Shown: positions 7,813-64,000, counted from the stretch's first letter. The stretch is DNA of 64,000 nucleotides from Watersipora subatra (GCF_963576615.1 NC_088715.1:62507981-62571980); one strand, 5' to 3'. A program made the numbers and translations. The notes: a model not told the origin generated them from the sequence alone.

Positions 7813-7973
7813 ATAAAGCATTTCAAGTCTTCGAAAATAAATGAATGGTGAATTTACGAAAAAGTATTTTACTTTGCGTGTTTTAGCTTACTAGCTAATG
7901 ATGTTGTGTTGATTGTTTTCAAGCTTTTTCTTTAAGACCGAGATTATAAAAGCTCTTGATGTTATGTGTATCT
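7813..7973 (+). repeat. Truncated array unit at retroelement junction
   Basis: Array spacer resumes in mid-unit directly after the LTR. Other units read ...gaagttataaagcatttc... where this one has LTR followed by ataaagcatttc. This shows that the element inserted into an existing unit. Confidence 0.85.
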
Positions 7974-8046
7974 GGCCCTGTCGCCTAATGGATAAGGCGT
8001 CTGAGTTCGAATCAGAAAATTGTGGGTTCGAGTCCCGTCAGAGTCA
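7974..8046 (+). tRNA. tRNA-Arg(TCG), diverged edge copy
   Basis: Class A cloverleaf with anticodon TCG but several changes. C4 faces A69, position 9 is C, loop position 32 is G, and T50 pairs with G64. C9 and A45 are shared with 31613 and 50578, marking a sublineage. First tRNA after the retroelement; function doubtful. Confidence 0.7.
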
Positions 8047-8627
8047 ACACATCATTTTGACAACCTTTTCAATCATTTTAAAAAATCGATCGAAAGGTTG
8101 AGTAGGTATATCTTTACTGTTGCTCAACGTGCCTGGAAAAAACACCGCTCCACTGTCTACCAACCGATTACCCTGCGTTTATTAATCTTAACGAAATATT
8201 TAACACTTTTTTTAACATTCAAAACTAGTAGTTGCTCACTTTTTATATTTTCGAATGTTGTTGTTAACGAAGTTAAGAAGAAAAAGCAACTCGGAGAAAA
8301 CTCTGACTAGGTGGATTCAATATAAACTGACTGTATAATCATAATTTTTAAATCAAAAAATGAGTTCGGCTGTTTTAAATTCAATAAATCAATAAAGTAA
8401 AAAAAAGAAATTATTGCATTACTTTTCCATATATAAACTTGTTAATGAACTACTTGAAAGTTTCAGTATTTTTTGTAAACATTTAGTTTTAATTGTAATC
8501 AAATAAGATTACACTTTTCAGTTCGATGAGAATTTATTGATTTATAGTTAAACAACGGTGATCTTGTAACAAATCTTCATAAGGTTAAGGTTAAATTCAA
8601 ACAAGTAATACAGAGCTTTTAGCATCC

Positions 8628-8700
8628 GGCCTTGTGGCCCAATGGATAAGGCGTCTGATTACGAATCAGAAGATTGTGGGTTCGAGTCCCATCAAGGTCA
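8628..8700 (+). tRNA. tRNA-Arg(ACG)
   Basis: Class B gene with anticodon ACG and T at loop position 32 (TTACGAA). All stems and both internal promoter boxes are intact. Confidence 0.87.
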
Positions 8701-9322
8701 ATATGTCATGTTTTGTGTTGATAAAAGAGTAGATAGTACTTACAATAATGATATTAATGCATGGATTTTTTAGATTTAACAGCTCAAATTGTAAAACTTA
8801 AAATCTTCAAATTAAAAGAAATAGAATAATTTACTGAAATGTATGGTTTTAGCAACTGTCGAAACAATTACAACCAGTTTTATATTATTTAACTGAATAT
8901 AATAGATAAATGTAAGCTTCTAGATACAAATTATTTTAAGAACATGTCAGAACAAAAACAAAAACGTTTTGGAAAAAGTATGTAATCCAGTTATGTATTG
9001 AAGAGAAAAAGTTATGATTGCTACAAAACTTTGGATGTATCAGATTTAGCATTTCTAGCTCTGAATAAATAAAAATATATCCATGTCAAAATATAGTTTA
9101 CCTATTTGGTGCGTTTTCAAAATCAGCGTGACATAGTTTTAATATTGCTATTTCTGAAGTTATAGAGCATTTCAACTCCTCGAAAATAAATGAATGGTGA
9201 ATTTACAAAAAAGTATTTTACTTTGTGTGTTTTAGCTTACTAGCTAATGATGTTGTGTTGATTGTTTTCAAACTTTTTCTTTAGGACCGAGATTATAAAA
9301 GCTCATGATGTTATGTGTATTC

Positions 9323-9395
9323 GGCTCTGTGGCCTAATGGATAAGGCGTCTGACTTTGAATCAGAAGATTGTGGGTTCGAGTCCCATCAGAGTCA
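9323..9395 (+). tRNA. Arg-type tRNA body with Gln anticodon TTG
   Basis: Identical to class A consensus except C35 to T, turning TCG into TTG, which would read the Gln codon CAA. All stems pair. The box A-like tRNA D-arm and perfect box B (GGTTCGAGTCC) remain, and A20, an arginine identity base, is kept. Charging specificity is unknown. Confidence 0.85.
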
Positions 9396-9977
9396 ACAGA
9401 TGATTTTAACAACCTTTTCAATCATTTTATAAAATTGATCGAAAGTTTGAGTAGGTATATCTTTACTGTTGCTCAACATGTCTAGAAAAACCACTGCTCC
9501 ACTGTCTACCAACCAATAACCCTGCTTTTGTTAGTTTTAGTAAAATATTTAACACTTTTTTAAACATTCAAAACTAGTAGTTGCTCACCCTTTATCTTTT
9601 CGAATGTTGTTTTTAACGAAGTCAAGCAGAAAAAGCAACTCGGGCAAAACTCTGATTAGGTGGATTCAATATAAACTGACCGTATACTCATAATTTTTAA
9701 ATCAGAAAATGATTTCGGCTGTTTTACATTCAAGAAATCGATAAAGTAAAAAAAACAAGTTATTACATCAGTTTTCCATATATAAACTTGTTGATGAACT
9801 ACTTGAAAGTTTCAGTACATTTTGTAAACTTTTAGTTTTAATTTGCAATCAAATAAGATTTCACTTTTTGGTTCGATGAGAACTTATCGATTTATAGTTG
9901 AACAACGGTGATCTTGTAACAATTCTTCATAAGTTTAAGGTCAAATTCAAACAAGTAATAGAGAGTTTTTAGCATCC
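9396..9977 (+). repeat. Representative A-to-B spacer (582 bp), no gene
   Basis: Typical of every class A to class B/C spacer. It begins with the A-gene T4 terminator and ends with a conserved block just before agcatccgg at the B tRNA start. No RNA gene or credible ORF is seen. A short frame that starts at TTG inside the A tRNA and runs into this spacer recurs only because the DNA recurs. Confidence 0.8.
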
Positions 9978-10050
9978 GGCCTTGTGGCCCAATGGATAAG
10001 GCGTCTGACTACGAATCAGAAGATTGTGGGTTCGAGTCCCATCAAGGTCA
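9978..10050 (+). tRNA. tRNA-Arg(ACG), consensus class B
   Basis: Reference class B gene. Acceptor GGCCTTG pairs with CAAGGTC, anticodon loop is CTACGAA, and T arm is GTGGG/CCCAT with loop TTCGAGT. No intron. A34 would be edited to inosine, reading CGT, CGC and CGA. Discriminator A73; no encoded CCA. Confidence 0.92.
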
Positions 10051-10060
10051 ATATGTCATG

Positions 10061-10064
10061 TTTT
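10061..10064 (+). terminator. Pol III T4 terminator after class B tRNA (representative)
   Basis: TTTT begins about 10 bp after the tRNA end (10050), inside a conserved tcatgttttgtg block that follows nearly every class B, C and hybrid gene. Confidence 0.65.
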
Positions 10065-10643
10065 GTGTTGATAAAAGAGTAGTTAGTACTTACAATAATG
10101 ATATCGACGCATGGATTTTTGAGATTTAACAGCTCAAATTGTAAAACTTAAACTCTTTAAATTAAAAGAAATAGAATAAATTATTGAAATGGATGGTTTT
10201 AACAGCTGTCGAAACAATTACACTCAGTATCATATTATTTAACTGAATATTATAGATAAATGTAAGCTTGTAGATCCAAATTATTTTAAGAACATGTCAG
10301 AACAAAAACCAAAAAGTTTTGAAAAAGTATGTAATCCAGTTATGTATTGAATAGAAAAAAGTTATAATTCCTACATAACTTTGGAGGTCCTACAATTAGT
10401 ATTTCTAGCTCTGAATAAACAAAAAGTTATTCTTGTCAAATTATTGTTGTACATATTTGGTGTGTTTTCAAAATCAGCGTGACATAGTTTTAATATTGCT
10501 ATTTCTGAAGTTATAAAGCATTTCAAGTCTTCGAAAATAAATGAATGGTGAATTTACAAAAAAGTATTTTACTTTGCGTGTTTTAGCTTACTAACTAATG
10601 ATGTTGTGCTGATTGTTTTCAAGTTTTTTTTTAAGACCGACAT

Positions 10644-10650
10644 TATAAAA
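10644..10650 (+). promoter_or_regulatory. TATA-like element upstream of class A tRNA (representative)
   Basis: TATAAAA starts 29 bp upstream of the tRNA at 10673, where TFIIIB's TBP would bind. The same TATAAAA at the same distance precedes nearly every class A gene. It reads TACAAAA before 20099, and TATCAAT before 34300 and 53267. Class B and C genes lack an equivalent TATAAAA. Confidence 0.6.
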
Positions 10651-10672
10651 GCTCTTGATGTTATGTGTATCC

Positions 10673-10745
10673 GGCTCTGTGGCCTAATGGATAAGGCGTC
10701 TGACTTCGAATCAGAAGATTGTGGGTTCGAGTCCCATCAGAGTCA
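10673..10745 (+). tRNA. tRNA-Arg(TCG), consensus class A
   Basis: Reference class A gene. Acceptor GGCTCTG pairs with CAGAGTC, D arm is GCCT/AGGC, anticodon stem TCTGA/TCAGA with loop CTTCGAA, and T arm GTGGG/CCCAT. Box A matches TGGCCTAATGG and box B GGTTCGAGTCC. It delivers arginine to CGA (and CGG by wobble). No intron and no encoded CCA. Confidence 0.94.
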
Positions 10746-10753
10746 ACAGATCA

Positions 10754-10757
10754 TTTT
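10754..10757 (+). terminator. Pol III T4 terminator after class A tRNA (representative)
   Basis: TTTT begins 9 bp after the tRNA end (10745). The same placement occurs after almost every class A copy and suits RNA polymerase III termination. Confidence 0.7.
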
Positions 10758-11326
10758 AACAACCTTTTCAATCATTTTATAAAATTGATCGAAAGTTTGA
10801 GTAGGTGTATCTTTACTGTTGCTCAACATGTCTGGAAAAACCACTGCTCCACTGTCTACCAACCAATAACCCTGCTTTTGTTAGTTTTTGTAAAATATTT
10901 AACACTTTTTTAAACATTCAAAACTAGTAGTTGCTCACCCTTTATATTTTCGAATGTTGTTTTTAACGAAGTCAAGCAGAAAATGCAACTCGGGCAAAAC
11001 TCTGACTTGGTGTATTCAATATAAACTGATTGTATACTCATAATCTTTAAATAAAGAAATGAGTTCGACTGTTTTAAATTAAAAAAATCGATAAATTTAA
11101 AAAATAAATTTATTACATCAGTTTTCCATATATAAACTTGTTGATGAACTATTTGAAAGTTTCAGTACTTTTTGTAAACTTTTAGTTTTAATTGGAATCC
11201 AATAAGATTACACTTTTTCGTTCGATGAGAACTTATCGATTTATAGTTAAACCACAGTGATCTTGTAACAAAACTTCATAAGTTTAAGGTTAAATTCAAA
11301 CCAATAATACAATATTTTCAGCATCT

Positions 11327-11399
11327 GGCCTTGTGACCCAATGGTAAAGGCATTTGACTACGAATCAGAAATTTGTGGTTTCGAGCCCCATCAAGGTCA
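11327..11399 (+). pseudogene. Decayed tRNA-Arg(ACG)-like, class C
   Basis: Class C has A10 opposite C25, A20a, A26 and T28. This copy also has T20 instead of the arginine-identity A20, and T53 facing C61. Box A and box B are both altered, so transcription is doubtful. Confidence 0.75.
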
Positions 11400-12020
11400 A
11401 TATGTCATGTTTTGTGTCGATAAAAGAGTAATTAGTACTTACAATAATGATATCGTCACATGGATTTTTGAGATTTAACAGCTCAAATTGTAAAACTTAA
11501 ACTCTTTAAATTAAAAGAAATAGAATAATTTACTGAAATGGATGGTTTTAACAGCCGTCGAAACAATTACACTCAGTATCATATTATTTAACTGAATATA
11601 ATAGATAAATGTAAGCTTGTAGATCCAAATTATGTTAAGAACATGTCAGAACAACAGCCAAAAAGTTATGAAAAAGTATGTAATCCAGTTATGTATTGAA
11701 TAGAAAAAAGTTATAATTCCTACATAACTTTGGAGGTCCTACAATTAGTATTTCTAGCTCTGAATAAACAAAAAGTTATTCTTGTCAAATTATTGTTGTA
11801 CATATTTGGTGTGTTTTCAAGGTCAGTGTGACGAAGTTTTAATAATGCTATTTCTGAAGTTATTAAGCATTTCAAATCTTTGAAAATAAATGAATGGTGA
11901 ATTTACAAAAAAGTATTTTACTTTGCGTGTTTTAGCTTACTAACTAATGATGTTGTGCTGATTGTTTTCAAGTTTTTTTTAGGACCGAGATTATAAAAGC
12001 TCATGATGTTATGTGTATCC

Positions 12021-12674: not shown

Positions 12675-12747
12675 GGCCTTGTGGCCCAATGGATAAGGCG
12701 TCTGACTACGAATCAGAAGATTGTGGGTTCGAGTCCCATCAAGGTCA
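12675..12747 (+). tRNA. tRNA-Arg(ACG)
   Basis: Exact match to the class B reference at 9978. Confidence 0.92.
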
Positions 12748-20752: not shown

Positions 20753-20825
20753 GGCCTTGTGGCCCAATGGATAAGGCGTCTGATTATGAATCAGAAGATT
20801 GTGGTTTCAAGTCCCATCAAGGTCA
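20753..20825 (+). tRNA. Arg-type tRNA body with His anticodon ATG
   Basis: Class B with loop TTATGAA: T32 and C35 to T give anticodon ATG. The T arm also has T53 and A57, both disturbing box B. One of six copies sharing this exact set. Probably weakly transcribed or a pseudogene. Confidence 0.72.
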
Positions 20826-28178: not shown

Positions 28179-28251
28179 GGCTCTGTGGCCTAATGGATAA
28201 GGCGTCTGACTTCGAATCAGAAGATTGTGGGTTCGAGTCCCATCAAGGTCA
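28179..28251 (+). tRNA. Hybrid A/B tRNA-Arg(TCG)
   Basis: The 5' part through anticodon TCG is class A and the 3' acceptor strand (CAAGGTC) and flank are class B. The acceptor stem therefore has C5 opposite A68 and a T4-G69 wobble. The next A gene follows after only 695 bp, so 654 bp between an A and a B gene was lost by exchange within the tRNAs. Confidence 0.85.
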
Positions 28252-30223: not shown

Positions 30224-30296
30224 GGCTCTGTGGCCTAATGGATAAGGCGTCTGACTTCGAATCAGAAGATTGTGGGTTCGAGTCCCTTCAAGGTCA
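30224..30296 (+). tRNA. Hybrid A/B tRNA-Arg(TCG)
   Basis: Hybrid as at 28179 with an added T64 facing T50. Lies 2,045 bp from 28179 in a duplicated block, so probably the same recombination event copied. Two mismatches make function unlikely. Confidence 0.78.
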
Positions 30297-30918: not shown

Positions 30919-30991
30919 GGTTCTGTGGCTTAATGGATAAGGCGTCTGACTTCGAATTAGAAGATTGTGGGTTCGAGTCCCATCAAGGTCA
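30919..30991 (+). tRNA. Hybrid A/B tRNA-Arg(TCG), diverged
   Basis: Second hybrid lineage: A-type 5' half with T3 and T12, B-type 3' end. T40 opposite G30 weakens the anticodon stem. Spaced 695 bp from the preceding hybrid. Confidence 0.75.
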
Positions 30992-37304: not shown

Positions 37305-37482
37305 AAGAAAACTCTGATTAGGTGGATTCAATATAAACTGATTGTATACTCATAATTTTTAAATCAAAAAATGAGTTTGGCTGTTTTACATTCAAGAAAA
37401 CTCTGATTAGGTGTATTCAATATAAGCTGATTGTATACTCATAATCTTTTAATAAAGAAATGAGTTCGACTGTTTTAAATTA
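37305..37482 (+). repeat. 89-bp tandem duplication in a spacer
   Basis: Two adjacent copies (about 37305-37393 and 37394-37482) both start with aagaaaactctgattaggtg. They belong to different spacer haplotypes (ggattcaatataaact versus gtattcaatataagct), so the event joined two non-identical units out of register. It accounts for the 1,437-bp unit. Confidence 0.75.
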
Positions 37483-37727
37483 AAAAAATCGATAAATTTA
37501 AAAAATAAATTTATTACATCGGTTTTCCATATATAAACTTGTTAATGAACTATTTGAAAGATTCAGTACTTTTTGTAAACTTTTAGTTTTAATTGCAATC
37601 AAATAAGATTACACTTTTTGGTTCGATGAGAACTTATCGATTTATAGTTAAACCACAGTGATCTTGTAACAAAACTTCATAAGTTTAAGGTTAAATTCAA
37701 ACCAATAATACAATATTTTCAGCATCT

Positions 37728-37800: not shown

Positions 37801-38421
37801 ATATGTCATGTTTTGTGTCGATAAAAGAGTAATTAGTACTTACAATATTGATATCGTCACATGGATTTTTGAGATTTAACAGCTCAAATTGTAAAACTTA
37901 AACTCTTTAAATTAAAAGGACTAGAATAAAGTATTGAAATGGATGGTTTTAACAGCTGTCGAAACAATTAAATTCAGTATCATATTATTTAACTGAGTAT
38001 GATAGTTAAATGTAAGCTTGTAGATGCAAATTATTTTAAGAACATGTCAGAACAAAAACCAAAAAGTTTTGAAAAAGTATGTAATCCAGTTATGTATTGA
38101 ATAGAAAAAAGTTATAATTCCTGCATAACTTTGGAGGTCCTACAATTAGTATTTCTAGCTCTGAATAAACAAAAAATTATCCATGCCAAAATATAGTTTA
38201 CCTAATTGGTGTGTTTTCAAAATCAGCGTGACATAGTTTTAATATTGCTATTTCTGAAGTTATAAAGCATTTCAAGTCTTCGAAAATAAATGAATGGTGA
38301 ATTTACAAAAAAGTATTTTACTTTGCGTGTTTTAGCTTACTAACTAATGATGTTGTGTTGATTGTTTTCAATTTTTTTTTTAGGACCGAGATTATAAAAG
38401 CTCATGATGTTATGTGTATCC

Positions 38422-38488
38422 GGCTCTGTGGCCTAATGGATAAGGCGTCTGACTTTGAATCAGAAGATTGTGGGTCCCATCAGAGTCA
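38422..38488 (+). pseudogene. TTG Arg-type tRNA lacking the T loop
   Basis: Only 67 bp. Six bases (TTCGAG) that make up most of the T loop and box B are missing between GGG and TCCC. Anticodon TTG. Cannot form a T arm, so a pseudogene, yet copied intact to 42456. Confidence 0.85.
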
Positions 38489-39069
38489 ACAGATCATTTT
38501 AACAACCTTTTCAATCATTTTATAAAATTGATCGAAAGTTTGAGTAGGTATATCTTTACTGTTGCTCAACATGTCTGGAAAAACCACCGCTCCACTGTCT
38601 ACCAACCAATAACCCTGCTTTTGTTAGTTTTAGTAAAATTTTTAACACGTTTTTAAACATTCAAAACTAGTAGTTGCTCACCCTTTATATTTTCGAATGT
38701 TGTTTTTAACGAAGTCAAGCAGAAAAAGCAACTCGGGCAAAACTCTGACTAGGTGTATTCAATATAAGCTGATTGTATACTCATAATCTTTGAATAAAGA
38801 AATGAGTTCGACTGTTTTAAATTAAAAAAATCGATAAATTTAAAAAATAAATTTATTACATCGGTTTTCCATATATAAACTTGTTAATGAACTATTTGAA
38901 AGATTCAGTACTTTTTGTAAACTTTTAGTTTTAATTGCAATCAAATAAGATTACACTTTTTGGTTCGATGAGAACTTATCGATTTATAGTTAAACCACAG
39001 TGATCTTGTAACAAAACTTCATAAGTTTAAGGTTAAATTCAAACCAATAATACAATATTTTCAGCATCT

Positions 39070-39142
39070 GGCCTTGTGACCCAATGGAAAAGGCATTTGA
39101 CTACGAATCAGAAGTTTGTGGTTTCGAGCCCCATCAAGGTCA
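39070..39142 (+). pseudogene. Decayed tRNA-Arg(ACG)-like, class C
   Basis: Class C, T53 and G45 subtype, in the left copy of a 4,034-bp duplicated block. Confidence 0.75.
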
Positions 39143-39766
39143 ATATGTCATGTTTTGTGTCGATAAAAGAGTAATTAGTACTTACAATATTGATATCGTC
39201 ACATGGATTTTTGAGATTTAACAGCTCAAATTGTAAAACTTAAACTCTTTAAATTAAAAGGACTAGAATAAAGTATTGAAATGGATGGTTTTAACAGCTG
39301 TCGAAACAATTAAATTCAGTATCATATTATTTAACTGAGTATGATAGTTAAATGTAAGCTTGTAGATGCAAATTATTTTAAGAACATGTCAGAACAAAAA
39401 CCAAAAAGTTTTGAAAAAGTATGTAATCCAGTTATGTATTGAATAGAAAAAAGTTATAATTTCTACATAACTTTGGAGGTCTTACAATTAGTATTTCTAG
39501 CTCTGAATAAACAAAAAGTTATTCTTGTCAAATTATTGTTGTACATGTTTGGTGTGTTTTCAAGGTCAGCGTGACAAAGTTTTAATAATGCTATTTCTGA
39601 AGTTATAAAGCATTTCAAGTCTTTGAAAATAAATGAATGGTGAATTTACAAAAAAAGTAGTTTACTTTGCGTGTTTTAGCTTACTAACTAATGAGGTTGT
39701 GCTGATTGTTTTCAAGTTTTTTCTTTAGGACCGAGATTATAAAAGCTCATAATGTTATGTGTATCC

Positions 39767-39839
39767 GGCTCTGTGGCCTAATGGATAAGGCGTCTGACTT
39801 CGAATCAGAAGATTGTGGGCTCGAGTCCCATCAGAGCCA
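39767..39839 (+). tRNA. tRNA-Arg(TCG), T54C and C71 variant
   Basis: Class A with T71 to C, turning the usual G2-T71 wobble into G2-C71, and T54 to C in the T loop, which breaks the T54-A58 contact. The same pair occurs at 43801. Confidence 0.8.
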
Positions 39840-40421
39840 ACAGATGATTTTAACAACCTTTTCAATCATTTTATAAAATTGATCGAAAGTTTGAGTAGGT
39901 GTATCTTTACTGTTGCTCAACTTGTCTGGAAAAACCACTGCTCCACTGTCTACCAACCGCTAATTCTGCTTTTGTTAGTTTTAGTAAAATATTTAACACT
40001 TTTTTAAACATTCAAAACTAGTAGTTGCTCACCCTTTATATTTTCGAATGTTGTTTTTAACAAAGTCAAGCAGAAAAAGCAACTCGAAGAAAACTCTGAT
40101 TAGGTGGATTCAATATAAACTGACTGTATACTCATAACTTTTAAATCAGAAAATGAGTTCGGCTGTTTTACATTCAAGAAATCGATAAATAAAAAAAAAA
40201 AAAAATATTTCATTACTTTTCCATATAGAAACTTGTTAATGAACTACTTGAAAGTTTCAGTACTTTTTGTAAACTTTTAGTTTTAATTGCAATCAAATAA
40301 GATTACACTTTCTGGTTCGATGAGAACTTATCGATTTATAGTTAAACAACGGTGATCTTGTAACAATTCTTCATAAGTTTAAGGTTAAATTCAAACAAGT
40401 AATACAGAGTTTTTAGCATCC

Positions 40422-40494
40422 GGCCTTGTGGCCCAATGGATAAGGCGTCTGATTATGAATCAGAAGATTGTGGTTTCAAGTCCCATCAAGGTCA
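40422..40494 (+). tRNA. Arg-type tRNA body with His anticodon ATG
   Basis: T32/ATG/T53/A57 subtype. Unit preceded by an unusually long A tract near 40190. Confidence 0.72.
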
Positions 40495-41107
40495 TGTTTT
40501 GTGTTGATAAAAGAGTAGTTAGTACTTACAATAATGATATCGACGCATGGATTTTTGAGATTTAACAGCTCAAATTGTAAAACTTAAACTCTTTAAATTA
40601 AAAGGAATAGAATAATTTATTGAAATGGATGCTTTTAACAGCTGTCGAAACAACCACACTGAGTGTTATATTATTTAACTTAATATAATAGATAAATGTT
40701 AGCTTCTAGATGCAAAATATCTTAAGAACGTGTCAGAACAAAAACAAAAATGTTTTGAAAAAAGTGTGTAATCCAGTTATGTATTGAAGAGAAAAAGTAA
40801 TAATTCTTACAAAACTTTGGATGTCTTAGATTTAGTATTTCTAGCTCTGAATAAACAAAAAGTTATCCATGTCAAAATATAGTTTACCTAATTGGTGTGT
40901 TTTCAAAATCAGCGTGACATAGTTTTAATATTGCTATTTCTGAAGTTATAAAGCATTTCAAGTCTTCAAAAATAAATGAATGGTGAATTTACAAAAAAGT
41001 ATTTTACTTTGCGTGTTTTAGCTTACTAGCTAATGATGTTCTGTTGATTGTTTTCAAATTTTTTTTTAGGACCGAGATTATAAAAGCTCATGATGTTATG
41101 TGTATCC

Positions 41108-41834: not shown

Positions 41835-42455
41835 ATATGTCATGTTTTGTGTTGATAAGAGAATAATTAGTACTTACAATAATGATATCGACGCATGGAT
41901 TTTTGAGATTTAACAGCTCAAATTGTAAAACTTAAACTCTTTAAATTAAAAGGAATAGAATAAATTATTGAAATGTATGGTTTTAACAGCTGTCGAAACA
42001 ATTACATTCAGTATCATATTATTTAACTGAGTATGATAGATAAAGGTAAGCTTGTAGATGCAAATTATTTTAAGAACATGTCAGAACCAAAACCAAACAG
42101 TTTTGAAAATTTATGTAATCCAGTTATGTATTGAATAGAAAAAAGTTATAATTCCTGCATAACTTTGGAGGTCCTACAATTAGTATTTCTAGCTCTGAAT
42201 AAACAAAAAATTATCCATGCCAAAATATAGTTTACCTAATTGGTGTGTTTTCAAAATCAGCGTGACATAGTTTTAATATTGCTATTTCTGAAGTTATAAA
42301 GCATTTCAAGTCTTCGAAAATAAATGAATGGTGAATTTACAAAAAAGTATTTTACTTTGCGTGTTTTAGCTTACTAACTAATGATGTTGTGTTGATTGTT
42401 TTCAATTTTTTTTTTAGGACCGAGATTATAAAAGCTCATGATGTTATGTGTATCC

Positions 42456-42522
42456 GGCTCTGTGGCCTAATGGATAAGGCGTCTGACTTTGAATCAGAAG
42501 ATTGTGGGTCCCATCAGAGTCA
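42456..42522 (+). pseudogene. TTG Arg-type tRNA lacking the T loop
   Basis: Same 67-bp, T-loop-deleted gene as 38422, exactly 4,034 bp away. A copy of the deletion, not a second event. Confidence 0.85.
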
Positions 42523-43103
42523 ACAGATCATTTTAACAACCTTTTCAATCATTTTATAAAATTGATCGAAAGTTTGAGTAGGTATATCTTTACTGTTGCT
42601 CAACATGTCTGGAAAAACCACCGCTCCACTGTCTACCAACCAATAACCCTGCTTTTGTTAGTTTTAGTAAAATTTTTAACACGTTTTTAAACATTCAAAA
42701 CTAGTAGTTGCTCACCCTTTATATTTTCGAATGTTGTTTTTAACGAAGTCAAGCAGAAAAAGCAACTCGGGCAAAACTCTGACTAGGTGTATTCAATATA
42801 AGCTGATTGTATACTCATAATCTTTGAATAAAGAAATGAGTTCGACTGTTTTAAATTAAAAAAATCGATAAATTTAAAAAATAAATTTATTACATCGGTT
42901 TTCCATATATAAACTTGTTAATGAACTATTTGAAAGATTCAGTACTTTTTGTAAACTTTTAGTTTTAATTGCAATCAAATAAGATTACACTTTTTGGTTC
43001 GATGAGAACTTATCGATTTATAGTTAAACCACAGTGATCTTGTAACAAAACTTCATAAGTTTAAGGTTAAATTCAAACCAATAATACAATATTTTCAGCA
43101 TCT

Positions 43104-43176
43104 GGCCTTGTGACCCAATGGAAAAGGCATTTGACTACGAATCAGAAGTTTGTGGTTTCGAGCCCCATCAAGGTCA
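43104..43176 (+). pseudogene. Decayed tRNA-Arg(ACG)-like, class C
   Basis: Copy of 39070 in the right half of the trimer duplication. Confidence 0.75.
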
Positions 43177-43800
43177 ATATGTCATGTTTTGTGTCGATAA
43201 AAGAGTAATTAGTACTTACAATATTGATATCGTCACATGGATTTTTGAGATTTAACAGCTCAAATTGTAAAACTTAAACTCTTTAAATTAAAAGGACTAG
43301 AATAAAGTATTGAAATGGATGGTTTTAACAGCTGTCGAAACAATTAAATTCAGTATCATATTATTTAACTGAGTATGATAGTTAAATGTAAGCTTGTAGA
43401 TGCAAATTATTTTAAGAACATGTCAGAACAAAAACCAAAAAGTTTTGAAAAAGTATGTAATCCAGTTATGTATTGAATAGAAAAAAGTTATAATTTCTAC
43501 ATAACTTTGGAGGTCTTACAATTAGTATTTCTAGCTCTGAATAAACAAAAAGTTATTCTTGTCAAATTATTGTTGTACATGTTTGGTGTGTTTTCAAGGT
43601 CAGCGTGACAAAGTTTTAATAATGCTATTTCTGAAGTTATAAAGCATTTCAAGTCTTTGAAAATAAATGAATGGTGAATTTACAAAAAAAGTAGTTTACT
43701 TTGCGTGTTTTAGCTTACTAACTAATGAGGTTGTGCTGATTGTTTTCAAGTTTTTTCTTTAGGACCGAGATTATAAAAGCTCATAATGTTATGTGTATCC

Positions 43801-43873
43801 GGCTCTGTGGCCTAATGGATAAGGCGTCTGACTTCGAATCAGAAGATTGTGGGCTCGAGTCCCATCAGAGCCA
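43801..43873 (+). tRNA. tRNA-Arg(TCG), T54C and C71 variant
   Basis: Copy of 39767. Compare 54615, which has C54 but keeps T71, showing the two changes arose in steps. Confidence 0.8.
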
Positions 43874-44455
43874 ACAGATGATTTTAACAACCTTTTCAAT
43901 CATTTTATAAAATTGATCGAAAGTTTGAGTAGGTGTATCTTTACTGTTGCTCAACTTGTCTGGAAAAACCACTGCTCCACTGTCTACCAACCGCTAATTC
44001 TGCTTTTGTTAGTTTTAGTAAAATATTTAACACTTTTTTAAACATTCAAAACTAGTAGTTGCTCACCCTTTATATTTTCGAATGTTGTTTTTAACAAAGT
44101 CAAGCAGAAAAAGCAACTCGAAGAAAACTCTGATTAGGTGGATTCAATATAAACTGACTGTATACTCATAACTTTTAAATCAGAAAATGAGTTCGGCTGT
44201 TTTACATTCAAGAAATCGATAAATAAAAAAAAAAAAAAATATTTCATTACTTTTCCATATAGAAACTTGTTAATGAACTACTTGAAAGTTTCAGTACTTT
44301 TTGTAAACTTTTAGTTTTAATTGCAATCAAATAAGATTACACTTTCTGGTTCGATGAGAACTTATCGATTTATAGTTAAACAACGGTGATCTTGTAACAA
44401 TTCTTCATAAGTTTAAGGTTAAATTCAAACAAGTAATACAGAGTTTTTAGCATCC

Positions 44456-44528
44456 GGCCTTGTGGCCCAATGGATAAGGCGTCTGATTATGAATCAGAAG
44501 ATTGTGGTTTCAAGTCCCATCAAGGTCA
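44456..44528 (+). tRNA. Arg-type tRNA body with His anticodon ATG
   Basis: Copy of 40422 (T32/ATG/T53/A57). Confidence 0.72.
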
Positions 44529-45141
44529 TGTTTTGTGTTGATAAAAGAGTAGTTAGTACTTACAATAATGATATCGACGCATGGATTTTTGAGATTTAAC
44601 AGCTCAAATTGTAAAACTTAAACTCTTTAAATTAAAAGGAATAGAATAATTTATTGAAATGGATGCTTTTAACAGCTGTCGAAACAACCACACTGAGTGT
44701 TATATTATTTAACTTAATATAATAGATAAATGTTAGCTTCTAGATGCAAAATATCTTAAGAACGTGTCAGAACAAAAACAAAAATGTTTTGAAAAAAGTG
44801 TGTAATCCAGTTATGTATTGAAGAGAAAAAGTAATAATTCTTACAAAACTTTGGATGTCTTAGATTTAGTATTTCTAGCTCTGAATAAACAAAAAGTTAT
44901 CCATGTCAAAATATAGTTTACCTAATTGGTGTGTTTTCAAAATCAGCGTGACATAGTTTTAATATTGCTATTTCTGAAGTTATAAAGCATTTCAAGTCTT
45001 CAAAAATAAATGAATGGTGAATTTACAAAAAAGTATTTTACTTTGCGTGTTTTAGCTTACTAGCTAATGATGTTCTGTTGATTGTTTTCAAATTTTTTTT
45101 TAGGACCAAGATTATAAAAGCTCATGATGTTATGTGTATCC

Positions 45142-49188: not shown

Positions 49189-49261
49189 GGCTCTGTGGCC
49201 TAATGGATAAGGCGTCTGACTTTGAATCAGAAGATTGTGGGTTCGAGTCCCTTTAAGGTCA
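49189..49261 (+). pseudogene. Hybrid A/B tRNA with TTG anticodon
   Basis: A-type 5' half with TTG, B-type 3' end, plus T64 and T66, which break the T stem and the G7-C66 pair. Positional copy of 30224 (18,965 bp away), which still has TCG, so the anticodon differs between duplicates. Confidence 0.75.
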
Positions 49262-49883
49262 ATATGTCATGTTTTGTGTTGATAAAAGAGTACTTAGTAC
49301 TTACAATAATGATATCGACGCATGGTTTTTTGAGATTTAACAGCTCAAATTGTAAAACTTAAAATTTTCAAATTAAAAGAAATAGAATAATTTACTGAAA
49401 CGTATGGTTTTAACAACTGTCGAAACAATTACGACCAGTGTTATATTATTTAACCGAATATAATAGATAAATGTAAGCTTCTAGATGCAAATTATTTTAA
49501 GAACGTGTCAGAACAAAAACAAAAATGTTTTGGAAAAAGTGTGTAATCCAGTGATGTATTGAAGAGAAAAAGTTATGATTCTTACAAAACTTTGGATGTC
49601 TCAGATTTAGTATTTCTAGCTCTGATTAAACAAAAAGTTATCTATGTCAAAATATAGTTTACCTATTTGGTGTGTTTTCAAAATCAGCGTGACATAGTTT
49701 TAATATTGCTATTTCTGAAGTTATAAAGCATTTCAAGTCTTCGAAAATAAATGAATGGTGAATTTACAAAGAAGTATTTTACTTTGCGTGTTTTAGCTTA
49801 CTAGCTAATGATGTTGTGTTGATTGTTTTCAAGTTTTTTCTTTAGGACCGACATTATAAAAGCTCATGATTTTATGTGTATCC

Positions 49884-49956
49884 GGTTCTGTGGCTTAATG
49901 GATAAGGCGTCTGACTTCGAATCAGAAGATTGTGGGTTCGAGTCCCATCAAGGTCA
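49884..49956 (+). tRNA. Hybrid A/B tRNA-Arg(TCG)
   Basis: Copy of the second hybrid lineage (30919) with T3 and T12 but a normal C40. The acceptor stem carries C5 opposite A68. Confidence 0.75.
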
Positions 49957-50577
49957 ATACGTCATGTTTTGTGTTGATAAAAGAGTAGTTAGTACTTACA
50001 ATAATGATATCGACGCATGGTTTTTTGAGATTTAACAGCTCAAATTGTAAAACTTAAACTCTTTAAATTAAAAGAAATAGAATAAATTATTGAAATGGAT
50101 GGTTTTAACAGCTCTCCAAACAATTACATTCAGTATCATATTATTTTACCGAGTATGATAGATAAATGTAAGCTTGTAGGTGCAAATTATTTTAAGAACA
50201 TGTCAGAACCATAACCAAACAGTTTTGAAAATGTATGTAATCCAGTTATGTTTTGAATAGAAAAAAGTTATAACTCCTACATAACTTTGGAGGTCTTACA
50301 ACTAGTTTTTCTAGCTCTGAATAAACAAAAAGTTATCTATGTCAAAATATAGTTTACCTATTTGGTGTGTTTTCAAAATCAGTGTGACATAGTTTTAATA
50401 CTGCTATTTCTGAAGTTATAAAGCATTTCAAGTCTTCAAAAATAAATGAATGGTGAATTTACAAAGAAGTATTTTACTTTGCGTGTTTTAGCTTACTAGC
50501 TAATGATGTTCTGTTGATTGTTTTCAAATTTTTTTTTAGGACCAAGATTATAAAAGCTCATGATGTTATGTGTATCC

Positions 50578-50650
50578 GGCTATGTCGCTTAATGGATAAG
50601 GCGTCTGACTTCGAATCAGAAAATTGTGGGTTCGAGTCCCATCAGAATCA
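50578..50650 (+). tRNA. tRNA-Arg(TCG), diverged class A
   Basis: Copy of 31613 (C9, T12, A45, A70) with A5 added, so two acceptor pairs (3-70 and 5-68) are mismatched. Function doubtful. Confidence 0.7.
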
Positions 50651-51231
50651 ACACATCATTTTAACAACCTTTTCAATCATTTTAAAAAACTGATCGAAAG
50701 GTTGAGCAGGTATATCGTTATTGTTGCCCAACGTGCCTGGAAAAACCACTGCTCCACTGTCTACCAACCAATAACCCTGCTTTTGTTAGTTTTAGTAAAA
50801 TTTTTAACACGTTTTTAAACATTCAAAACTAGTAGTTGCTCACCCTTTATATTTTCGAATGTTGTTTTTAATGAAGTCAAGCAGAAAAAGCAACTCGGGC
50901 AAAACTCTGACTAGGTGTATTCAATATAAGCTGATTGTATACTCATAATCTTTGAATAAAGAAATGAGTTCGACTGTTTTAAATTAAAAAAATCGATAAA
51001 TTTAAAAAATAAATTTATTACATCGGTTTTCCATATATAAACTTGTTAATGAACTATTTGAAAGATTCAGTACTTTTTGTAAACTTTTAGTTTTAATTGC
51101 AATCAAATAAGATTACACTTTTTGGTTCGATGAGAACTTATCGATTTATAGTTAAACCACAGTGATCTTGTAACAAAACTTCATAAGTTTAAGGTTAAAT
51201 TCAAACCAATAATACAATATTTTCAGCATCT

Positions 51232-51304
51232 GGCCTTGTGACCCAATGGAAAAGGCATTTGACTACGAATCAGAAGTTTGTGGTTTCGAGCCCCATCAAG
51301 GTCA
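51232..51304 (+). pseudogene. Decayed tRNA-Arg(ACG)-like, class C
   Basis: Class C, T53 and G45 subtype. Partner of 32266 in the duplicated 4.5-kb block. Confidence 0.75.
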
Positions 51305-51926
51305 ATGTGTCATGTTTTGTGTCGATAAAAGAGTAATTAGTACTTACAATATTGATATCGTCACATGGATTTTTGAGATTTAACAGCTCAAATTGTAAAA
51401 CTTAAACTCTTTAAATTAAAAGGAATAGAATAATTTATTGAAATGGATGGTTTTAACAGCCGTCGAAACAATTACATTCAGTATCATATTATTTAACTGA
51501 ATATTATAGATAAATGTAAGCTTGTAGATCCAAATTATTTTAAGAACATGTCAGAACAAAAACCAAAAAGTTTTGAAAAAGTATGTAATCCAGTTATGTA
51601 TTGAATAGAAAAAAGTTATAATTCCTACATAACTTTGGAGGTCCTACAGTTAGTATTTCTAGCTCTGAATAAACAAAAAGTTATTCTTGTCAAATTATTG
51701 TTGTACATATTTGGTGTGTTTTTCAGGTCAGCGAGACAAAAATTTAATAATGCTATTTCTGAAGTTATAAAGCATTTCAAGTCTTTGAAAATAAATGAAT
51801 GGTGAATTTACAAAAAAGTATTTTACTTTGCGTGTTTTAGCTTACTAACTAATGATGTTGTGCTGATTGTTTTCAAGTTTTTTTTTAGGACTGAGATTAT
51901 AAAAGCTCTTGATGTTATGTGTATCC

Positions 51927-51999
51927 GGCTCTGTGGCCTAATGGATAAGGCGTTTGACTTTGAATCAGAAGATTGTGGGTTCGAGTCCCATCAGAGTCA
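51927..51999 (+). tRNA. Arg-type tRNA body with Gln anticodon TTG
   Basis: TTG plus T28 haplotype. Partner of 32961 in the duplicated block. Confidence 0.83.
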
Positions 52000-52580
52000 A
52001 CAAATGATTTTAACAACCTTTTCAATCATTTTAAAAAACTGATCGAAAGGTTGAGTAGGTATATCTTTATTGTTGCCCAACGTGCCTGGAAAAACCACCG
52101 CCCCAATGTCTACCAACCAATAACCCTGCGTTTATTAATCTTAACAAAACATTTAACACTTTTTTAAACATTCAAAACTAGTAGTTGCTCACCCTTTATA
52201 TTTTCGAATGTTGTTTTTAACGAAGTCAAGCAAGAAAAGCAACTCTGGCAAAACTCTGATCAGGTGGATTCAATATAAACTGACTGTATACTCATAACTT
52301 TTAAATCAGAAAATGAGTTCGGTTTTTTACATTCATGAAATCGATAAATTAAAAAAAAACAAAATATTTCATTACTTTTCCATATAGAAACTTGTTAATG
52401 AACTACTTGAAAGTTTCAGTACTTTTTGTAAACTTTTAGTTTTAATTGCAATCAAATAAGATTACACTTTCTGGTTCGATGAGAACTTATCGATTTATAG
52501 TTAAACAACGGTGATCTTGTAACAATTCTTCATAAGTTTAAGGTTAAATTCAAACAAGTAATACAGAGTTTTTAGCATCC

Positions 52581-52653
52581 GGCCTTGTGGCCCAATGGAT
52601 AAGGCGTCTGATTATGAATCAGAAGATTGTGGTTTCAAGTCCCATCAAGGTCA
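52581..52653 (+). tRNA. Arg-type tRNA body with His anticodon ATG
   Basis: T32/ATG/T53/A57 subtype. Partner of 33615. Confidence 0.72.
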
Positions 52654-56671: not shown

Positions 56672-57294
56672 ATATGTCATGTTTTGTGTCGATAAAAGAG
56701 TAATTAGTACTTACAATATTGATATCGTCACATGGATTTTTGAGATTTAACAGCTCAAATTGTAAAACTTAAACTCTTTAAATTAAAAGGAATAGAATAA
56801 TTTATTGAAATGGATGGTTTTAACAGCCGTCGAAACAATTACATTCAGTATCATATTATTTAACTGAATATTACAGATAAATGTAAGCTTGTAGATCCAA
56901 ATTATGTTAAGAACATGTCAGAACAAAAACCAAAAAGTTTTGAAAAAGTATGTAATCCAGTTATGTATTGAATAGAAAAAAGTTATAATTCCTACATAAC
57001 TTTGGAGGTCCTACAGTTAGTATTTCTAGCTCTGAATAAACAAAAAGTTATTCTTGTCAAATTATTGTTGTACATATTTGGTGTGTTTTTCAGGTCAGCG
57101 AGACAAAGTTTTAATAATGCTATTTCTGAAGTTATAAAGCATTTCAAGTCTTTGAAAATAAATGAATGGTGAATTTACAAAAAAGTATTTTACTTTGCGT
57201 GTTTTAGCTTACTAACTAATGATGTTGTGCTGATTGTTTTCAAGTTTTTTTTTAGGACTGAGATTATAAAAGCTCTTGATGTTATGTGTATCCG

Positions 57295-57367
57295 GGTTCT
57301 GTGGCCTAATGGATAAGGCGTTTGACTTTGAATCAGAAGATTGTGGGTTCGAGTCCCATCAGAGTCA
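57295..57367 (+). tRNA. Arg-type tRNA body with Gln anticodon TTG
   Basis: T3/TTG/T28 haplotype with the extra upstream G, matching 35641 and 61332. Confidence 0.8.
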
Positions 57368-57948
57368 ACAAATGATTTTAACAACCTTTTCAATCATTTT
57401 AAAAAACTGATCGAAAGGTTGAGTAGGTATATTTTTATTGTTGCGCAACATGTCTGGAAAAACCACTGCTCCACTGTCTACCAACCGCTAACCCTGCTTT
57501 TGTTAGTTTTAGTAAAATATTTAACACTTTTTTAAACATTCAAAACTAGTAGTTGCTCACCCTTTATATTTTCGAATGTTGTTTTTAACGAAGTCAAGCA
57601 GAAAAAGCAACTCGGGCAAAACTCTGATCAAGTGGATTCAATATAAACTGACTGTATACTCATTATTTTTAAATCAAAAAATGAGTTCGGCTGTTTTAAA
57701 TTAAAAAAATCGATAAATTTTGAAAATAAATTTATTACATCAGTTTTCCATATATAAACTTGTTGATGAACTACTTGAAAGTTTCAGTACTTTTTGTAAA
57801 CTTTTAGTTTTAATTGCAATCAAATAAGATTACACTTTTTCGTTCGATGAGAACTTATCGATTTATAGTTAAACAAGGGTGATCTTGTAACAATTCTTTA
57901 TAAGTTTAAGGTTAAATTCAAACAAGTAATACAGAGTTTTTAGCATCC

Positions 57949-58021
57949 GGCCTTGTGGCCCAATGGATAAGGCGTCTGACTACGAATCAGAAGATTGTGG
58001 GTTAGAGTCCCATCAAGGTCA
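57949..58021 (+). tRNA. tRNA-Arg(ACG), T-loop C56A variant
   Basis: Class B with C56 to A. Identical to 61986, 4,037 bp away. Confidence 0.75.
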
Positions 58022-58642
58022 ATATGTCATGTTTTGTGTTGATAAAAGAATAATTAGTACTTACAATAATGATATCGATGCATGGATTTTTGAGATTTAA
58101 CAGCTCAAATTGTAAAACTTAAACTCTTTAAATTAAAAGGAATAGAATAAATTATTGAAATGTATGGTTTTAACAGCTGTCGAAACAATTACATTCAGTA
58201 TCATATTATTTAACTGAGTATGATAGATAAAGGTAAGCTTGTAGATGCAAATTATTTTAAGAACATGTCAGAACCAAAACCAAACAGTTTTGAAAATTTA
58301 TGTAATCCAGTTATGTTTTGAATAGAAAAAAGTTATAATTCCTGCATAACTTTGGAGGTCCTACAATTAGTATTTCTGGCTCTGAATAAACAAAAAATTA
58401 TCCATGCCAAAATATAGTTTACCTAATTGGTGTGTTTTCAAAATCAGCGTGACATAGTTTTAATATTGCTATTTCTGAAGTTATAAAGCATTTCAAGTCT
58501 TCGAAAATAAATGAATGGTGAATTTACAAAAAAGTATTTTCCTTTGCGTGTTTTAGCTTACTAACTAATGATGTTGTGTTGATTGTTTTCAAATTTTTTT
58601 TTAGGACCGAGATTATAAAAGCTCATGATGTTATGTGTATCC

Positions 58643-58715
58643 GGCTCTGTGGCCTAATGGATAAGGCGTCTGACTTCGAATCAGAAGATTGTGGGTTCGA
58701 GTCCCATCAGAGTCA
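58643..58715 (+). tRNA. tRNA-Arg(TCG)
   Basis: Exact class A consensus and the only unaltered tRNA in its three-unit block. Confidence 0.94.
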
Positions 58716-59296
58716 ACAGATCATTTTAACAACCTTTTCTATCATTTTATAAAATTGATCGAAAGTTTGAGTAGGTATATCTTCACTGTTGCTCAACATG
58801 TCTGGAAAAATCACTGCTCCACTGTCTACCAACCAATAACCCTGCTTTTGTTAGTTTTAGTAAAATATTTAACACTTTTTTAAACATTCAAAACTAGTAG
58901 TTGCTCACCCTTTATATTTTCGAATGTTGTTTTTAACGAAGTCAAGCAGAAAAAGCAACTCGGGCAAAACTCTGATTAGGTGGATTCAATATAAACTGAC
59001 TGTATACTCATAATTTTTAAATCAAAAAATTAGTTTGGCTGTTTTACATTCGAGAAATCGATAAAGTAAAAAAAACAAGTTATTACATTACTTTTCCATA
59101 TATATACTTGTTAATGAACTACTTGAAAGTTTCAGTACTTTTTGTAAACTTTTAGTTTTAATTGCAATCAAATAAGACTACACTTTCTGGTTCGATGAGA
59201 ATTTATCGCTTTATAGTTAAACCACAGTGATCTTGTAACAAAACTTCATAAGTTTAAGGTTAAATTCAAACCAATAATACAATATTTTCAGCATCT

Positions 59297-59369
59297 GGCC
59301 TTGTGACCCAATAGAAAAGGCATTTGACTACGAATCAGAAATTTGTGGTCTCGAGCCCCATCAAGGTCA
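59297..59369 (+). pseudogene. Decayed tRNA-Arg(ACG)-like, class C
   Basis: Class C with T53 and C54, and G18 to A in the D loop, which removes an invariant base. The most decayed class C copy in the window. Confidence 0.75.
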
Positions 59370-60063: not shown

Positions 60064-60635
60064 ACAGATCATTTTAACAATCATTTTATAAAATTGATCG
60101 AAAGTTTGAGTAGGTGTATCTTTACTGTTGCTCAACATGTCTGGAAAAACCACTGCTCCACTGTCTACCAACCAATAACCCTGCTTTTGTTAGTTTTAGT
60201 AAAATATTTAACACTTTTTTAAACATTCAAAACTAGTAGTTGCTCACCCTTTATATTTTCGAATGTTGTTTTTAACGAAGTCAAGCAGAAAATGCAACTC
60301 GGGCAAAACTCTGACTTGGTGTATTCAATATAAACTGATTGTATACTCATAATCTTTAAATAAAGAAATGAGAACGACTGTTTTAAATTAAAAAAATCGA
60401 TAAATTTAAAAAATAAATTTATTACATCAGTTTTCCATATATAAACTTGTTAATGAACTTCTTGAAAGTTTCAGTACTTTTTGTAAACTTTTAGTTTTAA
60501 TTGCAATCAAATAAGATTACACTTTTTGGTTCGATGAGAACTTATCGATTTATAGTTAAACCACAGTGATCTTGTAACAAAACTTCATAAGTTTAAGGTT
60601 AAATTCAAACCAATAATACAATATTTTCAGCATCT

Positions 60636-60708
60636 GGCCTTGTGACCCAATGGAAAAGGCATTTGACTACGAATCAGAAATTTGTGGGTTCGAGCCCCAT
60701 CAAGGTCA
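60636..60708 (+). pseudogene. Decayed tRNA-Arg(ACG)-like, class C with intact T stem
   Basis: Class C with G53 and normal anticodon stem. Partner of 56599. Confidence 0.65.
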
Positions 60709-61331
60709 ATATGTCATGTTTTGTGTCGATAAAAGAGTAATTAGTACTTACAATATTGATATCGTCACATGGATTTTTGAGATTTAACAGCTCAAATTGT
60801 AAAACTTAAACTCTTTAAATTAAAAGGAATAGAATAATTTATTGAAATGGATGGTTTTAACAGCCGTCGAAACAATTACATTCAGTATCATATTATTTAA
60901 CTGAATATTATAGATAAATGTAAGCTTGTAGATCCAAATTATGTTAAGAACATGTCAGAACAAAAACCAAAAAGTTTTGAAAAAGTATGTAATCCAGTTA
61001 TGTATTGAATAGAAAAAAGTTATAATTCCTACATAACTTTGGAGGTCCTACAGTTAGTATTTCTAGCTCTGAATAAACAAAAAGTTATTCTTGTCAAATT
61101 ATTGTTGTACATATTTGGTGTGTTTTTCAGGTCAGCGAGACAAAGTTTTAATAATGCTATTTCTGAAGTTATAAAGCATTTCAAGTCTTTGAAAATAAAT
61201 GAATGGTGAATTTACAAAAAAGTATTTTACTTTGCGTGTTTTAGCTTACTAACTAATGATGTTGTGCTGATTGTTTTCAAGTTTTTTTTTAGGACTGAGA
61301 TTATAAAAGCTCTTGATGTTATGTGTATCCG

Positions 61332-61404
61332 GGTTCTGTGGCCTAATGGATAAGGCGTTTGACTTTGAATCAGAAGATTGTGGGTTCGAGTCCCATCAGA
61401 GTCA
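61332..61404 (+). tRNA. Arg-type tRNA body with Gln anticodon TTG
   Basis: Copy of 57295 (T3/TTG/T28, extra upstream G). Confidence 0.8.
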
Positions 61405-61985
61405 ACAAATGATTTTAACAACCTTTTCAATCATTTTAAAAAACTGATCGAAAGGTTGAGTAGGTATATTTTTATTGTTGCGCAACATGTCTGGAAAAAC
61501 CACTGCTCCACTGTCTACCAACCGCTAACCCTGCTTTTGTTAGTTTTAGTAAAATATTTAACACTTTTTTAAACATTCAAAACTAGTAGTTGCTCACCCT
61601 TTATATTTTCGAATGTTGTTTTTAACGAAGTCAAGCAGAAAAAGCAACTCGGGCAAAACTCTGATCAAGTGGATTCAATATAAACTGACTGTATACTCAT
61701 TATTTTTAAATCAAAAAATGAGTTCGGCTGTTTTAAATTAAAAAAATCGATAAATTTTGAAAATAAATTTATTACATCAGTTTTCCATATATAAACTTGT
61801 TGATGAACTACTTGAAAGTTTCAGTACTTTTTGTAAACTTTTAGTTTTAATTGCAATCAAATAAGATTACACTTTTTCGTTCGATGAGAACTTATCGATT
61901 TATAGTTAAACAAGGGTGATCTTGTAACAATTCTTTATAAGTTTAAGGTTAAATTCAAACAAGTAATACAGAGTTTTTAGCATCC

Positions 61986-62058
61986 GGCCTTGTGGCCCAA
62001 TGGATAAGGCGTCTGACTACGAATCAGAAGATTGTGGGTTAGAGTCCCATCAAGGTCA
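61986..62058 (+). tRNA. tRNA-Arg(ACG), T-loop C56A variant
   Basis: Copy of 57949 with C56 to A. Confidence 0.75.
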
Positions 62059-62679
62059 ATATGTCATGTTTTGTGTTGATAAAAGAATAATTAGTACTTA
62101 CAATAATGATATCGATGCATGGATTTTTGAGATTTAACAGCTCAAATTGTAAAACTTAAACTCTTTAAATTAAAAGGAATAGAATAAATTATTGAAATGT
62201 ATGGTTTTAACAGCTGTCGAAACAATTACATTCAGTATCATATTATTTAACTGAGTATGATAGATAAAGGTAAGCTTGTAGATGCAAATTATTTTAAGAA
62301 CATGTCAGAACCAAAACCAAACAGTTTTGAAAATTTATGTAATCCAGTTATGTTTTGAATAGAAAAAAGTTATAATTCCTGCATAACTTTGGAGGTCCTA
62401 CAATTAGTATTTCTGGCTCTGAATAAACAAAAAATTATCCATGCCAAAATATAGTTTACCTAATTGGTGTGTTTTCAAAATCAGCGTGACATAGTTTTAA
62501 TATTGCTATTTCTGAAGTTATAAAGCATTTCAAGTCTTCGAAAATAAATGAATGGTGAATTTACAAAAAAGTATTTTCCTTTGCGTGTTTTAGCTTACTA
62601 ACTAATGATGTTGTGTTGATTGTTTTCAAATTTTTTTTTAGGACCGAGATTATAAAAGCTCATGATGTTATGTGTATCC

Positions 62680-62752
62680 GGCTCTGTGGCCTAATGGATA
62701 AGGCGTCTGACTTCGAATCAGAAGATTGTGGGTTCGAGTCCCATCAGAGTCA
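62680..62752 (+). tRNA. tRNA-Arg(TCG)
   Basis: Exact class A consensus; copy of 58643. Last intact tRNA in the window. Confidence 0.94.
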
Positions 62753-63333
62753 ACAGATCATTTTAACAACCTTTTCTATCATTTTATAAAATTGATCGAA
62801 AGTTTGAGTAGGTATATCTTCACTGTTGCTCAACATGTCTGGAAAAATCACTGCTCCACTGTCTACCAACCAATAACCCTGCTTTTGTTAGTTTTAGTAA
62901 AATATTTAACACTTTTTTAAACATTCAAAACTAGTAGTTGCTCACCCTTTATATTTTCGAATGTTGTTTTTAACGAAGTCAAGCAGAAAAAGCAACTCGG
63001 GCAAAACTCTGATTAGGTGGATTCAATATAAACTGACTGTATACTCATAATTTTTAAATCAAAAAATTAGTTTGGCTGTTTTACATTCGAGAAATCGATA
63101 AAGTAAAAAAAACAAGTTATTACATTACTTTTCCATATATATACTTGTTAATGAACTACTTGAAAGTTTCAGTACTTTTTGTAAACTTTTAGTTTTAATT
63201 GCAATCAAATAAGACTACACTTTCTGGTTCGATGAGAATTTATCGCTTTATAGTTAAACCACAGTGATCTTGTAACAAAACTTCATAAGTTTAAGGTTAA
63301 ATTCAAACCAATAATACAATATTTTCAGCATCT

Positions 63334-63406
63334 GGCCTTGTGACCCAATGGAAAAGGCATTTGACTACGAATCAGAAATTTGTGGTCTCGAGCCCCATCA
63401 AGGTCA
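63334..63406 (+). pseudogene. Decayed tRNA-Arg(ACG)-like, class C
   Basis: Partner of 59297 with T53 and C54 but a normal G18. The window ends 594 bp later at the promoter region of the next class A unit. Confidence 0.75.
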
Positions 63407-64000
63407 ATATGTCATGTTTTGTGTCGATAAAAGAGTAATTAGTACTTACAATAATGATATCGTCACATGAATTTTTGAGATTTAACAGCTCAAATTGTAA
63501 AACTTAAACTCTTTAAATTAAAAGAAATAGAATAATTTACTGAAATGGATGGTTTTAACAACTGTCGAAACAATTACAACCAGTGTTATATTATTTAACC
63601 GAATATAATAGATAAATGTAAGCTTCTAGATGCAAAATATCTTAAGAACGTGTCAGAACAAAAACAAAAACGTTTTGAAAAAAGTGTGTAATCCAGTTAT
63701 GTATTGAAGAGAAAAAGTAATAATTCCTACAAAACTTTGGATGTCTTAGATTTAGTATTTCTAGCTCTGAATAAACAAAAAGTTATCCATGTCAAAATAT
63801 AGTTTACCTAATTGGTGTGTTTTCAAAATCAGCGTCACATAGTTTTAATATTGCTATTTCTGAAGTTATGAAGCATTTCAAGTCTTCGAAAATAAATGAA
63901 TGGTGAATTTACAAAAAAGTATTTTACTTTGCGTGTTTTAGCTTACTAACTAATGATGTTGTGCTGATTGTTTTCAAGTTTTTTTTTAGGACCGACATTA

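Follow-up and report, generated by a model that had tools for sequence, protein, structure and literature searches.

A tandem array of paired arginine tRNA genes that is probably a mostly decaying tDNA satellite

The window, the 64,000-nucleotide stretch of DNA analyzed here, contains a head-to-tail array of tRNA-Arg genes that is at least 56 kb long, with the right end open at the edge of the window (Table 1). A cmscan search of the window against Rfam returned exactly 83 matches to RF00005 above the gathering score, all on the positive strand between 7,974 and 63,406. Since the best match had an E value of 5e-14 and the 83 matches lie in order, chance is excluded as an explanation for these loci. 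The genes were assigned by their flanking sequence to a UCG lineage (T type) or an ACG lineage (A type): 39 loci have T-type sequence on both sides, 39 have A-type sequence on both sides, and 5 are hybrids, with T-type sequence upstream and A-type sequence downstream. T and A genes alternate throughout the array, mostly with a spacing of 654 bp from T to A and 694 or 695 bp from A to T, and the resulting unit is 1,348 to 1,349 bp long. Mean identity between units is 93.4 to 93.6%. The locus thus has the organization of a tandem tDNA array, a unit of several genes and spacers repeated head to tail, with tRNA loci recognized by a covariance model. An earlier note on this DNA had described units of about 1,348 bp with two genes each, 83 tRNA loci on one strand, and an array that starts at 7,813 and continues beyond the window. 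The Rfam/Infernal count and strand agree with it exactly, the spacing of 654 plus 694/695 bp reproduces its unit, and the right end is indeed open.

The GC content of the array is about 30%, compared with 50 to 56% in the left flank. The two spacers are unrelated to each other; what aligns between them is the tRNA gene itself with a few adjoining bases (80 bp at 90%), and a common origin of the spacers was rejected because nothing outside this part could be aligned. We also rejected protein-coding spacers, the longest stop-free stretch of the consensus being 76 codons, and, within the window, a tRNA-derived SINE, given the strict one-strand tandem spacing and the placement of the genes between constant spacers. 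No exact match to the T-gene body was found in the viral or prokaryote contigs scanned. The tRNA bodies and the retrotransposon to the left of the array suggest a eukaryotic, probably animal, host. One T spacer carries a local tandem duplication of 89 bp (37,305-37,488), which extends the spacing there from 654 to 743 bp. Two 30-bp spacer stretches, located approximately 237 to 266 bp past the T gene starts and 556 to 585 bp past the A gene starts, have very low diversity between copies (pi of 0.005), which may be due to chance or to a conserved element.

To the left of the array lies an LTR retrotransposon with the features of the Ty3 type: domains in the order RT-RNaseH-IN, an LTR bounded by TG..CA, and a neighboring PBS-like sequence. 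Its second LTR lies beyond the window. The region from 1 to 7,812 has a GC content of 54% and several in-frame stops. Reassigned stop codons in the retroelement were considered and dropped, as eight stops in one frame of more than 2,300 codons fit ordinary decay. The array halts at exactly 7,813 because the 732-bp LTR occupies positions 7,081 to 7,812. Thus, 7,813 is not the natural end of the array but the point where it meets the outer end of the LTR of a decayed element of the Ty3 type. The boundary falls in an A spacer, with the T gene at 7,974 starting 161 bp farther downstream, and since the leftmost bases of the array are spacer sequence, the retrotransposon was inserted into a pre-existing array. 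This insertion had been overlooked in the earlier note, whose left edge is exact as an LTR boundary.

Table 1. Features of the window, with coordinates counted from its first nucleotide
Feature	Coordinates	Strand	Remarks
Ty3-type retrotransposon body	1..7080	-	RT-RNaseH-IN order by domain matches; stop-interrupted; runs off the window
5' LTR, 732 bp	7081..7812	-	TGTGGAGG...TTTTACA; TG..CA ends; PBS-like sequence adjoins
Tandem array of tRNA-Arg units	7813..64000	+	Two-gene units of ~1,348 bp, ~41 units, 83 tRNA loci; continues past the right end
First T-type (UCG) locus	7974..8046	+	One acceptor mismatch, C4-A69
Clean body with anticodon UUG (C35>T)	9323..9395	+	Representative of 10 clean T-type copies
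Clean A-type tRNA-Arg(ACG)	9978..10050	+	Representative
Clean T-type tRNA-Arg(UCG)	10673..10745	+	Representative; identical sequence x7
Divergent A-type lineage	11327..11399	+	Representative of 17 copies; stem mismatch; B box mostly broken
A-type pseudogene, anticodon AUG	20753..20825	+	Representative; B box broken (G53>T, G57>A); 6 identical copies
Hybrid tRNA gene	28179..28251	+	T-type 5' part, A-type 3' part; acceptor mismatch C5-A68; without T spacer
Hybrid tRNA gene	30224..30296	+	
Duplicated segment	30224..33687		Copy at ~49189-52653, offset +18,965/18,966; half-units 98.7-99.6% identical
Hybrid tRNA gene	30919..30991	+	
Higher-order repeat	38078..41073		2,996-bp exact match to 42112-45107; offset 4,034 = three units
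Hybrid tRNA gene	49189..49261	+	Copy of 30224 at +18,965
Hybrid tRNA gene	49884..49956	+	Copy of 30919 at +18,965
Higher-order repeat	56875..59312		2,438-bp exact match to 60912-63349; offset 4,037 = three units

In all five hybrid genes, the switch from T-type to A-type sequence falls within positions 34 to 68, a stretch over which T and A genes do not differ; all five lack a T spacer and have the acceptor mismatch C5-A68. Such genes are what an unequal crossover joining a T gene to an A gene would be expected to produce. Duplications were located by scanning the array against itself for exact runs, and the runs of 2,996 and 2,438 bp mark recent duplications of three units. By the four-gamete test, 38 to 39 copies contain a minimum of 55 to 56 recombination intervals per 1.2 kb, a count that recurrent mutation would inflate. 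These intervals are evenly distributed across genes and spacers; this even spread, together with high linkage across A genes, led us to reject the tRNA genes as special hotspots of recombination. When the state of base 35 in T genes was placed on the spacer tree, it required 11 changes versus 11.9 with shuffled labels, and the histories of genes and spacers are therefore unlinked. A separate recurrent origin of each UUG anticodon is unneeded, since gene conversion fits the unlinked pattern equally well. The array displays concerted evolution, with recombination between copies and a homogenization that is incomplete at 93.5% identity.

The condition of the tRNA genes was assessed by a strict structural check, in which wobble pairs and the C13-A22 mismatch, common in the A type, were allowed. 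An Arg anticodon, an intact cloverleaf, and the invariant bases were present in only 20 of the 83 copies: 15 with UCG, scattered over the array, and 5 with ACG, which start at 8,628, 9,978, 12,675, 18,060, and 53,918. A clean body with a C35>U change in the anticodon was found in 13 copies, 10 of the T type (UUG) and 3 of the A type (AUG). The other 50 loci carry a stem mismatch, an altered invariant base, or a T-loop deletion; this number is an upper bound on dead copies because a lone mismatch may in some cases be tolerated in the living cell. In total, the array contains 38 distinct tRNA gene sequences. These structural checks and the flank assignments bear out the earlier description of an array in which intact, anticodon-altered, hybrid, and decayed genes occur together. 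ARAGORN reported 71 tRNAs (48 Arg, 14 Gln-TTG, and 9 His-ATG), and its Gln and His genes are Arg genes with a single C>T change. High tRNA gene counts from annotation pipelines can thus be satellite noise.

A divergent lineage makes up 17 of the 39 A-type genes (11,327-63,406). It is distinguished by A10, A26, T28, T46, and C60, mostly with A20a and often with T53, about six or seven changes that are strongly linked across the gene, and it appears to be an old second allele that spread across the array. A T-type gene with a 6-base deletion that removes most of the T loop occurs twice (38,422-38,488 and 42,456-42,522), owing to the 4,034-bp duplication.

TATAAAA is found at -29/-30 in 41 of the 44 genes with a T upstream region, hybrids included, and TTTT occurs no more than 25 nt downstream of all 83 genes. 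The B box is canonical in 37 of the 44 T-promoter genes. Both the A and B boxes are canonical in 29 of 39 T genes versus 8 of 39 A genes (P = 3e-6), a difference that could reflect residual selection on the UCG genes. All but one of these eight A genes are located in the left half, from 8,628 to 29,600 (P = 0.02).

Every anticodon shift is a C>T change at a CpG, and the CpG o/e is 0.75. In the genes, C>T at consensus CpG reaches 10% versus 2% (T) and 14% versus 5% (A); in the spacers, it is raised in the A spacer (8% versus 3%) and not in the T spacer. Because these figures count copies rather than events, the C>T excess at CpG is a weak suggestion of methylation. The array might be a reservoir that yields anticodon-shifted tRNA-Arg genes (the 10 clean UUG and 3 clean AUG copies with Arg bodies), some of them expressed and charged, although we regard this as highly improbable. 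If true, the host would have a constant supply of new tRNA identities or a lasting cause of Arg/Gln mistranslation.

We compared the genes with their spacers in three respects: diversity, damaging changes, and the B box. Pi was 0.041 in T genes versus a spacer mean of 0.063, with 30% of the spacer windows lower, and 0.076 in A genes versus a spacer mean of 0.060, with 65% of the spacer windows lower. Under random placement, 10.6 distinct damaging substitutions were expected in T genes and 10 were observed (P = 0.48); the corresponding numbers for A genes were 9.6 and 7 (P = 0.12). Among spacer 11-mers, the conservation of the B-box segment ranked at the 60th percentile in T and at the 2nd percentile (worse) in A. 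Within their power, which is set by one array in one genome and by few independent events (20 and 17), the three tests detected no array-wide constraint on the tRNAs. Gene bodies conserved relative to spacers, as in a functional family, were not found in the array. Gene conversion between copies blurs these tests and, given the few events, weak selection may act on a subset of the genes.

Together, we consider it probable that the array is a tDNA satellite that grew from a functional UCG/ACG pair and is now mostly decaying, with its length set by recombination and a minority of its copies possibly still transcribable. Initially, one UCG and one ACG gene for tRNA-Arg, together with two AT-rich spacers unrelated to each other, would have been amplified head to tail. 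Unequal crossing over and gene conversion, as read from the sequence, now reshuffle the array, with no array-wide selection on the tRNA sequences that our tests, within their power, could detect. The majority of copies are structurally damaged or shifted in their anticodons. For a minority, chiefly UCG genes in which TATA lies at -29, both the A and B boxes are intact, and a T-run follows the gene, Pol III transcription may continue and contribute to the tRNA-Arg pool of the cell. The length of the array would be set by recombination and not by the demand for arginine tRNA.

The earlier note had offered two purposes for the array, a bulk supply of CGN-reading tRNA or a selfish or structural satellite. 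Bulk supply predicts conserved genes in variable spacers; the genes are not detectably more conserved than the spacers and only 20 of 83 are clean Arg, so this idea is unsupported. A related reading, in which the array was amplified for function and supplies CGN-reading tRNA-Arg, perhaps in certain tissues as SYY does, is unlikely, even though it can draw on the 20 clean genes (15 UCG and 5 ACG), on the intact promoters and T-runs of many copies, and on the precedent of the SYY cluster, a pseudogene-bearing array with transcription in root cap cells and an effect there when it is deleted (PMC12308677). Purifying selection was undetectable in gene bodies, damaging changes, and the B box, 34 of the 39 A-type genes are not clean ACG, and 63 of the 83 loci are not clean Arg tRNAs. 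The satellite part of the second proposal stands, whereas its "selfish" and "structural" parts are indistinguishable from simple neutral satellite behavior.

A structural role could still be exerted through the binding of TFIIIC and Pol III, as a boundary, an insulator, or an element of chromosome organization, in which case promoters would matter and anticodons would not. In T-promoter genes, the B box (37/44) and TATA (41/44) have survived more often than a body and anticodon that are both clean for Arg, and a tDNA array with boundary features has been described in human and mouse (PMC4041453). However, in T genes the B-box segment has fared no better than spacer 11-mers, and in A genes it ranks among the worst kept; we judge this role quite unlikely. 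Finally, misassembly might have inflated the copy number, arrays being error-prone to assemble and two 4.03-kb blocks being exact or near-exact tandem copies. The 38 distinct tRNA sequences and the mean unit identity of 93.5% make nearly all units distinguishable, and the hybrids and segment copies give a consistent history of recombination. Misassembly cannot explain 38 distinct gene sequences, and a copy number inflated in this way is very improbable; the exact duplicates could be affected. A decaying satellite remains our preferred reading.

A classical tDNA repeat exists in Xenopus. The closest precedent for the present array is SYY, a tandem tRNA-Ser/Tyr/Tyr cluster on chromosome 1 of Arabidopsis thaliana, in which a small multi-tRNA unit is likewise repeated head to tail; tandem duplication has enlarged the cluster, along which major variants, minor variants, and pseudogenes are distributed unevenly (PMC12308677). 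The cluster of A genes with intact boxes in the left half of our array resembles the core/variable zoning reported for SYY. The two differ in isotype, Ser/Tyr/Tyr there and Arg/Arg here, and in the hybrids and anticodon shifts of the Arg array. The damaged share is larger here (50 of 83 defective) than in SYY, where 13 of 54 Tyr genes yield only tRNA-like RNAs (PMC12308677). Silenced clusters of the SYY type are characterized by heterochromatin, methylation, and silence in most tissues; SYY itself is mostly silent, with reactivation in root tips (PMC12308677). The earlier note missed this precedent, and since SYY likewise repeats a multi-tRNA unit and contains pseudogenes, the array is less unusual than the note claimed. 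A limited search of the open-access literature found no description of an Arg/Arg dimer array. Many plants carry tandem tRNA clusters (PMC12652284), and anticodon shifts have been reported in Drosophila tRNA genes (PMC7919458).

In Entamoeba, too, tRNA genes form tandem arrays, whose units hold as many as five of them; these arrays are mostly uniform, contain nearly all of its tRNA genes, and have no clear pseudogenes, in contrast to the heterogeneous and decayed Arg array (PMC2652664). The human tDNA VNTR at 1q23.3 and its mouse counterpart are likewise large animal tRNA tandem repeats with LTR elements at their edges (PMC4041453). The human units, however, are 7.3 kb long and GC rich, with a CTCF site and Leu/Gly/Glu/Asp tRNAs (PMC4041453), whereas ours are 1.35 kb long and AT rich, at 30% GC. 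Zebrafish, Nematostella, and Xenopus have high-copy clustered tDNAs, nearly all parallel in Xenopus and zebrafish, although mostly of mixed isotypes, unlike the Arg/Arg dimer (PMC2888827). What the present locus adds is a sequence-resolved multi-tRNA array in decay, in which intact, shifted, hybrid, and dead copies adjoin one another and recombination is measurable. It offers a test of the birth and loss of tDNA arrays such as SYY, and it appears to be of the same kind as the tRNA arrays of Arabidopsis, Entamoeba, and human, spread in a satellite-like manner by unequal recombination.
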